Source: Chthoniobacterales bacterium
GTDB taxonomy: Bacteria > Verrucomicrobiota > Verrucomicrobiia > Chthoniobacterales > UBA10450
NCBI GenBank assembly: GCA_013694595.1
Contig: JACDCC010000243.1
Span: 1 to 32,756, forward strand
DNA length: 32,756 bases
Direction: 5' to 3'
The first letter of the stretch is position 1. Each line of letters begins with the position of its first letter. The translations under genes and the position numbers were made by a program. Under the pieces are notes generated by a model. It made no database searches. It was not told where the DNA came from and saw only the letters and a program-made list of their open reading frames with translations. Below are positions 1,892 through 6,859 of this stretch, piece after piece.

Positions 1892-2012
1892 GCAACTCAC
1901 AATCAACAAACACTTCCCTCTAGCGTCCGGCATGACGGACCAGCGGCTAACCCGCGGCCGGCTTCGCCTACGAGCTGGTTTCACTCCAGGCGTTCCGCGG
2001 TTAACTAGTGGC

Positions 2013-4744
2013 GTGATTCAGGTTCGCTACGACCGCGGCGTTTATCTGCCGGAGCATGATCTCTGGCTGGACGCGTGGGACGCGAAGCCGCTTGCGTTTG
2101 TCTCGCATGCGCACAGCGATCACATCGCGCCGCATGCCGAGATCATTCTTTCCGAACGCACCGCGCGTTTGATGCAGGCGCGAATCCCGGGCGAACGGAC
2201 GGAGCACGTGCTGCCGTTCGGCGAGACGAAGACGGTGCGCGGTCTTGAGATCACGCTGCTCCCGGCGGGCCACATCTTCGGCTCCGCGCAATTTTTTCTC
2301 CAAACTAAGCGCGGTTCGCTGCTCTACACCGGCGACTTCAAACTGCGGCCGGGACGTTCCGCCGAGCCGACGGAGTGGCGAAACGCAGAGACGTTGATCA
2401 TGGAAACGACCTACGGTCTGCCGCGTTACCGTCTGCCACCCACGAACGACGTGATCGCGCAGATCGTCGCTTTCTGCCGCGACGCGCTGGAAGAGAAGGC
2501 GGTACCGGTGCTCCTCGGGTACTCGTTAGGTAAAGCACAGGAGATTCTCTGCGCGCTCGCAGGCGCGGGACTGAGGCCGATGCTGCATGGGTCGGTCTTT
2601 CGCATGACGCGCATCTACGAGCAGTTCGGCCAATCGTTTTGCGACTACGAGCGCTACAACGACAAAGCTCTCGACGGGAAGGTGCTGATCTGCCCGCCGA
2701 GCGCGAACCGGTCACGGATGCTGGAGAAAATCCCGCGTAAACGCGTTGCGATGATCAGCGGCTGGGCGGTGGATCCGAACGCGAAATATCGCTACCAGGT
2801 GGACGCAGCTTTCCCGCTCTCCGATCACGCGGATTACACCGATCTGCTGCGTTACGTGGAGCTGGTGCAACCGGCGCGCGTGCTGACGTTGCACGGTTTC
2901 GCCGCCGAATTCGCACGCGATCTGCGCGAGCGCGGGATCGAAGCGTGGGCGCTGAGCGAACAGAATCAGCTGGAGCTGATGCTGCCGAAGATCCGGAGGG
3001 AGGCGCTTCCGCGCATCGATGGACATGCAGAAGCATGTCCCCCCGCCGCGCCGTCGGAGTTCGCCGGTTTCGCCGAGACAGGCGAAGCGATCGCCGCGAC
3101 GCCAGCGAAGCTCGAGAAGGTTCGCATTCTCTCGGAGTATCTCCGCTCGCTCGCGCCCGAGCAGCTGCCAATCGCGACGCGCTATCTGACGGGGAAGGCG
3201 TTCGCTCAAAGCGATCCGCGTCCGCTGCAGGTCGGGTGGGCGGTGATTTTCCGCGCCCTGCTCGCGGCGACGAAGATTCACGATTCGGAATTGCACCGCA
3301 TTGCCGGCAGCCACGGAGACGCCGGCAAGACCGCGCTCGAAGCGCTTGAGGGGCGCACGAACCCGGAGCCGTTCACGCTTCTGGAATCCAAACAGCTCTT
3401 CGACGATCTGCACAAGGCACGCGGACCGCTTGCGAAAGCCGAGCTGCTGCAGGCGCGGCTGGCGAAACTCTCCCCGCGCGAAGGGCAATACGTCGTAAAG
3501 ATTCTGACCAGCGATTTGCGGATCGGCCTGCGCGAAGGCCTGGTGGAAGAGGCGATCGCCACGGCCTTCGAGGCACCCATCGATGACGTCAAAGAAGCCA
3601 ACATGCTGCTTGGCGATCTCGGGGAGGCAGCGGCGCTCGCCTCCGGCGGGCAATTGCGGTCCGCTGAGCTGTCCCTCTTCCGCCCGATCAAATGCATGCT
3701 GGCGAGCCCCGAACCGACTGCGGAAGCGATCTGGGCGCGCTTCGCGGACAATGCCGCGAAGACGCAGACGATCTTCGTGGAGGACAAGTTCGACGGCATC
3801 CGCGCCCAACTACACCGCGGCATCGATCGAGTGGAAATTTTCTCACGCGACCTGCGCCGCATGACTGATCAGTTCGGTGAGCTCGCAGAGCGGGCGAGAT
3901 CGTTCGAAGCTGAGGTGATCCTCGACGGTGAGATCATGGCATTCGAAAACGGCCGTAAGCTCACGTTTTTCGATCTGCAGAAACGCCTCGGGCGGAAAAG
4001 CGAAGGGAGCGATTTGTTTGCCGCGGCGTCGGCTGACGTGCCGGTGGTATTCGTCGCGTTCGATCTTGTTTGGGTGAACGGACGGTCGTTATTGAAGGCG
4101 CCGCTGTCCGAGCGGCGCGAGCTTTTGCGCGAACTAGCGCTGCCACCGCAGTTCCAAGTCTCGGAAGTATCGCCCGCTCATTCGCCGGAGGAGATCGAGC
4201 AGGCCTTTCAAGCGGCGCGCCTCCGGTTGAACGAAGGCCTGATGGTGAAGGATCCGGCGAGCTTCTACACGCCCGGCCGGCGCGGGATGTTCTGGTTCAA
4301 ACTAAAGAAGGAGCTCGCCACACTCGACGTCGTGGTGGTGGCCGCCGAGCTCGGTCACGGCAAACGGAACCACGTGCTGAGCGATTACACGTTTGCGGTG
4401 CGCGACGATACGACGGGACAGTTGCTCACCATCGGGAAAGCCTACAGCGGCCTCACCGATGTCGAGATCGCGGAGCTGACCGAGCACTTCAAGCAGAACA
4501 CGCTCGCTGAACATGGCCGCTACCGGCGAGTGAAGCCGGACGTGGTGCTCGAGATCGCGTTCGACTCGATCCAGCCGAGCACGCGGCACGAGAGCGGCCT
4601 CGCGCTGCGCTTCCCACGGATCAAAGCAATCCGTCGCGACAAAGCGGTCGAGGCGATTGATACCGTCTCCTACGCGCGGCGGCTCGCAGAAGAGAGGATC
4701 GGACCTCCGCCGGCCGCGGCGAAAACACGGGCGCGTTCGTCTCG

Positions 4745-4748
<4 letters not shown>
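2013..4748 (+). CDS. Metallo-beta-lactamase exonuclease fused to ATP-dependent DNA ligase
   Basis: Two enzymes in one chain of about 911 residues. The N-terminal ~345 residues are a metallo-beta-lactamase nuclease of the ligase-associated/Cft2-like type: the zinc motif HAHSDH starts at 2112-2123 (preceded by SH at 2103-2108), with TGDF, ETTYG and SDHAD motifs further on. The C-terminal part is an ATP-dependent DNA ligase: an alpha-helical DNA-binding domain, then the nucleotidyl-transfer motif EDKFDGIRAQ with the adenylated Lys encoded at 3786-3788, DGEIMAF, EGLMVKDP and WFKLKKE, and an OB-fold tail. The nuclease presumably trims ends that the ligase seals. In other bacteria these are adjacent separate genes, often with an Lhr-like helicase and a phosphoesterase, neither of which is here. 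The GTG at 2013 is preferred because similarity starts at IQVRYDRG; an in-frame ATG at 1932 would add 27 low-complexity residues. Confidence 0.93.
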
Positions 4749-6781
<2,033 letters not shown>

Positions 6782-6859
6782 CGTGGAGTTAGACCGACAC
6801 GGTCGCTCCTTATTCGAAACTAACCAGCGCCGGGGCTGCATAGCCGCCGATCTCTACGG

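Follow-up and report, generated by a model that had tools for sequence, protein, structure and literature searches.

One of the closest described systems is the bacterial ligase-associated DNA damage response set, which comprises a ligase (TIGR04120), a helicase (TIGR04121), an exonuclease (TIGR04122) and a PdeM-type phosphoesterase (TIGR04123). The role and target of the set formed by LigB, Lhr, phosphodiesterase and nuclease are called unknown in a 2023 paper (PMC10140301), which reports 13 RMMBL–LigB fusions from Antarctic Dry Valley metagenomes. The fusion that was expressed there is 959 residues long and its nuclease half was insoluble; the separated ligase half of one such fusion seals nicks with ATP (PMC10140301, section 18). 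According to the same paper, none of the fusions whose flanks were compared lies in a helicase/phosphodiesterase operon, and a fusion from Opitutus terrae, OTER_RS15935, is cited from Ejaz & Shuman 2018. Because PMC10140301 reports such proteins, the nuclease–LigB fusion itself is already in print.

We analyzed a 32,756-nucleotide contig of a Chthoniobacterales bacterium (the window), in which a nuclease–ligase fusion gene occupies 2013..4748 of the forward strand (GTG start, 911 codons plus stop). Its domain order is that of the Dry Valley and O. terrae fusions, to which we liken it by their published description only, and like the Dry Valley members compared in that paper it does not stand beside helicase or phosphodiesterase genes. 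O. terrae, as described there, keeps the operon, whereas in the genome of the window the partners are on other contigs. Relatives of all four members of the damage response set occur in this genome; they differ from that set in that all score below the curated cut-offs, the nuclease and ligase are fused, and the genes are scattered.

The open frame spans 1932–4748 on the forward strand and holds 938 codons when read from the ATG at 1932, from which residues are numbered throughout. GTG 2013, the start originally proposed, is likelier than this ATG, because the matches of many relatives begin only there, at about residues 26–28. Two congeners (G002 and G003) seem to have an in-frame stop upstream of that point, as inferred from frame length against matched range. 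NCBIfam and Pfam place TIGR04122 (residues 34–343), RMMBL (295–339), DNA_ligase_A_N, DNA_ligase_A_M and DNA_ligase_A_C in that order within the single open frame. The original prediction of two domains in one chain, each with an intact catalytic motif (HAHSDH, residues 59–64; EDKFDGIR, with K619), is borne out.

The metallo-beta-lactamase/beta-CASP nuclease half extends over 2013..2984 (+; residues 28–351), as delimited by TIGR04122 and the model fold, with its HAHSDH motif at 2106..2123 (+). The TIGR04122 match scores 229 bits against a curated cut-off of 325, and by this profile score the nuclease half is a relative of the ligase-associated exonuclease, not that equivalog. Residues H59, H61, D63, H64, H114, D135, H299 and H321 are identical in all 71 aligned rows. 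Across 151 nuclease loci, some of which are the same gene twice or partial genes, nine of 10 nuclease positions are intact wherever covered, with a Q at H299 in locus L058 as the sole exception; at the tenth, H219, four standalone loci have another residue. Modelled alone, the nuclease half reaches a pLDDT of 94.4 and a pTM of 0.91.

A linker follows at 2985..3059 (+; residues 352–376), most of it predicted to be disordered. In the full-length model (pLDDT 89.7, pTM 0.58), pLDDT falls below 50 over residues 317–343 of the model, whose count starts at GTG 2013; in the numbering used here these are residues 344–370. The model thus shows a fusion predicted to consist of well-formed domains on a flexible tether. 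The ligase half comprises an N-terminal DNA-binding domain (DNA_ligase_A_N, 3060..3560, residues 377–543), an adenylation domain (DNA_ligase_A_M, 3720..4307, residues 597–792) and a C-terminal OB-fold domain (DNA_ligase_A_C, 4368..4643, residues 813–904), all on the forward strand. The codon of the motif I adenylation lysine, K619, was located at 3786..3788 (+) by ligase alignment. All three domains exceed their Pfam cut-offs and the catalytic lysine is present, as in a three-domain LigB-type ligase, and motifs I, III, IIIa, IV, V and VI can be recognized; judged from these features, the ligase half is probably active. It matches archaeal ligases and human ligase 1. Against the more specific models it scores 305 bits to TIGR04120 (curated cut-off 400), 326 to PRK03180, 325 to PRK09247 and 325 to LigA_Halo, each below its own cut-off.

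The fusion gene is flanked by one ORF without a Pfam match and by a gene for a DUF6600 protein, with no helicase or phosphodiesterase gene adjoining. The DUF6600 gene (4745-6841) is convergent, its stop overlapping that of the fusion by four bases, and its product has a long low-complexity tail rich in alanine, threonine and proline. Neither a helicase-like nor a PdeM-like gene lies within the window, as the original prediction had it, but the broader claim that the fusion exists without its usual helicase and phosphoesterase fails on a genome-wide search. A PdeM relative is found on another contig (C85:5152–5739; 131.8 bits to TIGR04123, below the cut-off of 150), and the search for the helicase recovered an Lhr-type C-terminal part that runs off the end of contig C132. 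These two finds rule out that the partners are absent from the genome. The helicase fragment is 86% identical to residues 592–855 of the helicase of a congener, or 75% over 322 aligned residues with gaps included; the congener's protein scores 749 bits to PRK13767 and 668 bits to TIGR04121, both below cut-off. The first ~590 residues of the helicase were not found in the genome of the window, whose assembly consists of 413 contigs with 91.85% completeness and 5.12% contamination, and we assume an assembly gap. The same genome (G000) has three more genes with an ATP-dependent ligase domain, on contigs C339, C158 and C135, one of them in a frame of 856 codons.

Among 58 genomes, that of the window and those of relatives, the fusion is present in 45, including that of the window (five of these show it as a pair of matches within a single frame); three have fusion-like fragments, two a standalone nuclease (G041 and G050) and seven nothing similar, and in one, 76% complete, neither half was seen. 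A frame broken between the domains, or a chimera, is ruled out by this recurrence. The family of the window has the fusion as its usual form (33 of 37 genomes, with three fragmentary and one with neither half), so that the gene is no oddity of a single genome; the 45 fused genomes and the phylum sample dispose of that idea. Neither is it the standard form across the phylum, an outcome that the original prediction had named as counting against it. In an even phylum sample of 387 genomes, 84 have a match at 1e-30 and 303 do not. After sorting by hand, with at most two candidates scored per genome, 32 genomes are fused (one split over two contigs), three have a truncated ligase, 33 have the related nuclease alone at 42–58% identity, 13 have separate distant nuclease and ligase genes, and three have a distant nuclease only. 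A further scan, which reaches close relatives only, returned 62 named loci, 61 of them in Verrucomicrobiota records; the remaining one matches the ligase distantly and belongs to a Desulfohalobiaceae record.

The ancestry of the fusion was examined with quick trees that included 20 of the 33 standalone nucleases of the phylum sample and, as fused rows, the window, 12 of the 61 Verrucomicrobiota loci, 20 from the class (two with truncated ligase) and nine from the order. All 42 fusions examined have ligase halves that fall into a single clade (starred support of 100), which lies 1.69 changes per column away from the nine separate ligases, and within it the halves group by the families of their organisms; the placement of one ligase row (L174), with a branch length of 2, is unsure. 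Families f1, f5, f9, f15 and f17 have starred support in both the nuclease and the ligase tree, and family f18 has 99 (starred) in the ligase tree and 94 in the nuclease tree. In the nuclease tree, fused and standalone members are intermixed. Standalone members nest inside families f15 and f17, the standalone nucleases of G343 and G193 group with the fused one of G311, from the same genus, with starred support of 99, and the starred branches require at least four changes. Each of the 20 standalone nucleases examined stops at the point where a linker would begin.

The simplest history is one fusion followed by repeated loss of the ligase. Its rival, that an ancestral standalone nuclease was fused repeatedly and independently with one kind of ligase, draws on the nuclease tree, where the fused halves are not a single clade (a fused-only clade is rejected, AU p 6.6e-7) and standalone branches lie near the base in families f13, f14 and f22. 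In addition, no ligase relic was found within up to 4 kb behind any of 20 standalone nucleases (best match E 0.68). Repeated fusion is harder to reconcile with the single ligase clade, with the recurrence of the same families in both trees, with the grouping of G343 and G193 with G311, and with the decaying ligase halves described below, which look like intermediates of loss. It also sits poorly with the neighbors in f17, where the flanks fetched show the same AI-2E transporter gene upstream of 13 of 13 standalone and five of six fused genes. It is upstream of neither of two truncated genes, and within these flanks a methylpurine glycosylase gene lies downstream of six of 13 standalone, three of six fused and both truncated genes; these counts come from direct comparison of the flanks, as broader neighbor groups mix in some opposite-strand frames. 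Since some standalone lineages lie near the base and relations between families, poorly resolved, differ between the two trees, repeated gain keeps a place among the explanations, but we consider it unlikely.

The original prediction took the fusion to imply a fixed 1:1 unit for processing and sealing ends. As a general requirement, this is contradicted by standalone nucleases and decayed ligase halves, and the tether in the model is flexible. The adenylation lysine is K in 48 of 51 aligned ligases and is changed in three fusions, to L in G275 (L154), R in G340 (L155) and Q in G057 (L174; C67:21196-23886). G275 and G340 also lack the ligase C-terminal domain, and in G267 (L189) only the ligase DNA-binding domain is left. 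All four genomes keep intact nuclease motifs despite their damaged ligase halves, and none has a second match to PF04675. PF04675 was likewise without a match in all 35 genomes whose related nuclease stands alone, so that none of them shows a LigB-type ligase. An obligate 1:1 complex, in which the fusion hands a processed end straight to the ligase, would account for the short linker (17–52 residues, median 30, in 84 loci passing the end filter) and for retention of the fusion throughout most of the window's family. It would also fit the low dN/dS within the window's clade, where comparison with five relatives gives 0.09–0.17 in the nuclease half and 0.06–0.11 in the ligase half (dS 0.76–1.84, often above 1 and partly saturated). 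Set against these are the genomes whose ligase is dead, truncated or absent, and a tether whose flexibility is apparent from the low pTM of the full-length model relative to its pLDDT, which together make an obligate complex improbable. These sequences suggest instead that the ligase half was damaged or lost time and again and the nuclease half retained, a pattern of loss from fusions that we did not find in the published literature searched.

Helicase and PdeM genes were tallied across the same lineages, with a helicase counted at ~620 bits or more to TIGR04121 (pieces summed, fragments in proportion) and G057 counted as fused despite its changed lysine. In this tally completeness was entered as 97 for all class-level and separate-gene genomes, from which G318 and others differ; none of the class-level fused or standalone genomes is below 96. 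Of the 61 fused genomes with a completeness of 90% or more, 42 carry helicase and PdeM, two PdeM alone and 17 neither. By this criterion, the 17 genomes with neither indicate that the fusion can do without its partners. The 35 standalone-nuclease genomes all came out without PdeM and without a full-length helicase of the type counted. In a raw comparison, ligase loss is strongly associated with absence of both partners (both present in 42 of 61 fused and 0 of 35 standalone genomes; Fisher 1.2e-12). With relatedness allowed for, no link was seen (79 rows, 77 with both traits, G275 and G340 excluded; four independent pairs, median p 0.5). Helicase and PdeM do co-vary with relatedness allowed for under the main helicase criterion (median p 0.03, range 0.03–0.06), but this no longer holds when long Lhr-type frames are counted as helicase (median p 0.125); these tests used 72 rows, seven low-completeness genomes having been dropped.

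Such frames, at ~410–440 bits to TIGR04121, are carried by five of the 17 genomes with neither partner (G009, G019, G021, G040 and G389). Lhr-type frames of ~1150–1520 codons and ~410–450 bits occur without a counted helicase in these five and in G027 and G340. Weaker TIGR04121 matches (102–249 bits) in five standalone genomes (G041, G134, G221, G322 and G380) were judged to be other helicases. Two fused genomes below 90% completeness (G013 and G056) have a helicase fragment and no PdeM that was seen. G267 keeps both helicase and PdeM with its truncated ligase, which argues against a strict order of loss. The genes are arranged variously: in the window's family, each of the 15 genomes of 90% completeness or more that possess fusion, helicase and PdeM has them on three separate contigs, and in six genomes (G196, G067, G074, G142, G153 and G328) fusion, helicase and PdeM form a run in which the matched regions are 3–307 bases apart. 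The helicase of G328 is above the TIGR04121 cut-off and starts three bases behind the fusion, whereas those of the other five are below it, at about 640-660 bits; the fusion thus goes with two kinds of helicase.

A third alternative concerns the substrate: the nuclease half might cut RNA or RNA:DNA hybrids (R-loops, primers or ribonucleotides in DNA), with the ligase sealing what remains. Its nearest folds are archaeal aCPSF1 (FttA), CPSF73, TTHA0252, Cas14 and RNase J (Z 25–33); Foldseek ranks archaeal CPSF ahead of SNM1A, and a profile search agrees. Fold and motifs are common to SNM1A and Apollo, to CPSF73, aCPSF1 and RNase J, and to the nuclease half, mostly at 14–24% identity in structural alignments, and unlike the fusion these enzymes are without a ligase. 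H321 points toward RNA, since at this position the beta-CASP enzymes that cut RNA carry His and those that cut DNA carry Val. We know of no activity for the window protein or for any fused nuclease half. Mycobacterial Lhr is reported to prefer RNA:DNA duplexes (PMC8301817). On the other side, the best matches in a single-sequence search are the DNA repair nucleases SNM1A and Apollo (their absence from the 50 fold matches listed excludes nothing), and a shared fold shows no substrate. We give an RNA substrate little credence, although DNA as the substrate is itself only putative, as the fold is nearest to RNA-cutting beta-CASP enzymes.

The reading that we favor, and hold to be rather probable, is a two-headed end-processing enzyme with its partners in trans, derived from one vertically inherited fusion whose ligase was later lost repeatedly and whose nuclease was kept by selection. 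The enzyme would be related to the bacterial ligase-associated damage-response set. Its N-terminal beta-CASP nuclease would trim or open a damaged end and, some 30 flexible residues on, the LigB-type ATP-dependent ligase would then seal the nick, trimming presumably preceding sealing; the Lhr-type helicase and PdeM-type phosphoesterase, encoded elsewhere, would probably contribute in trans. A single origin within the class, followed by vertical descent, is the most likely history of the fusion. The low dN/dS of both halves, the gene runs of six genomes and the 42 of 61 fused genomes with both partners speak for this reading. The flexible tether would raise local concentration rather than fix geometry, and since inactivation or loss of the ligase half followed on several occasions, the tether would be a help and not a necessity. 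The nuclease half is probably the part that has a duty of its own and is kept by selection.

A further reading, which we regard as evenly poised, takes the nuclease to be a core sufficient in itself, to which the other members of the set are optional additions. One ancient Verrucomicrobiota fusion would have had its ligase repeatedly inactivated, truncated or deleted in place, with the adenylation lysine lost in two lineages and the nuclease motifs hardly ever touched, and helicase and PdeM would mostly occur, or be missing, as a pair, also in genomes where they are not linked. Lineages that have the nuclease without ligase, helicase or phosphoesterase form a natural deletion series, and they indicate where testing should begin and that a single unit of nuclease and sealing activity cannot account for everything. 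If the nuclease is indeed such a core, it would perform a task for which no dedicated ligase is needed, and the genomes compared would show the stepwise dismantling of a repair system.
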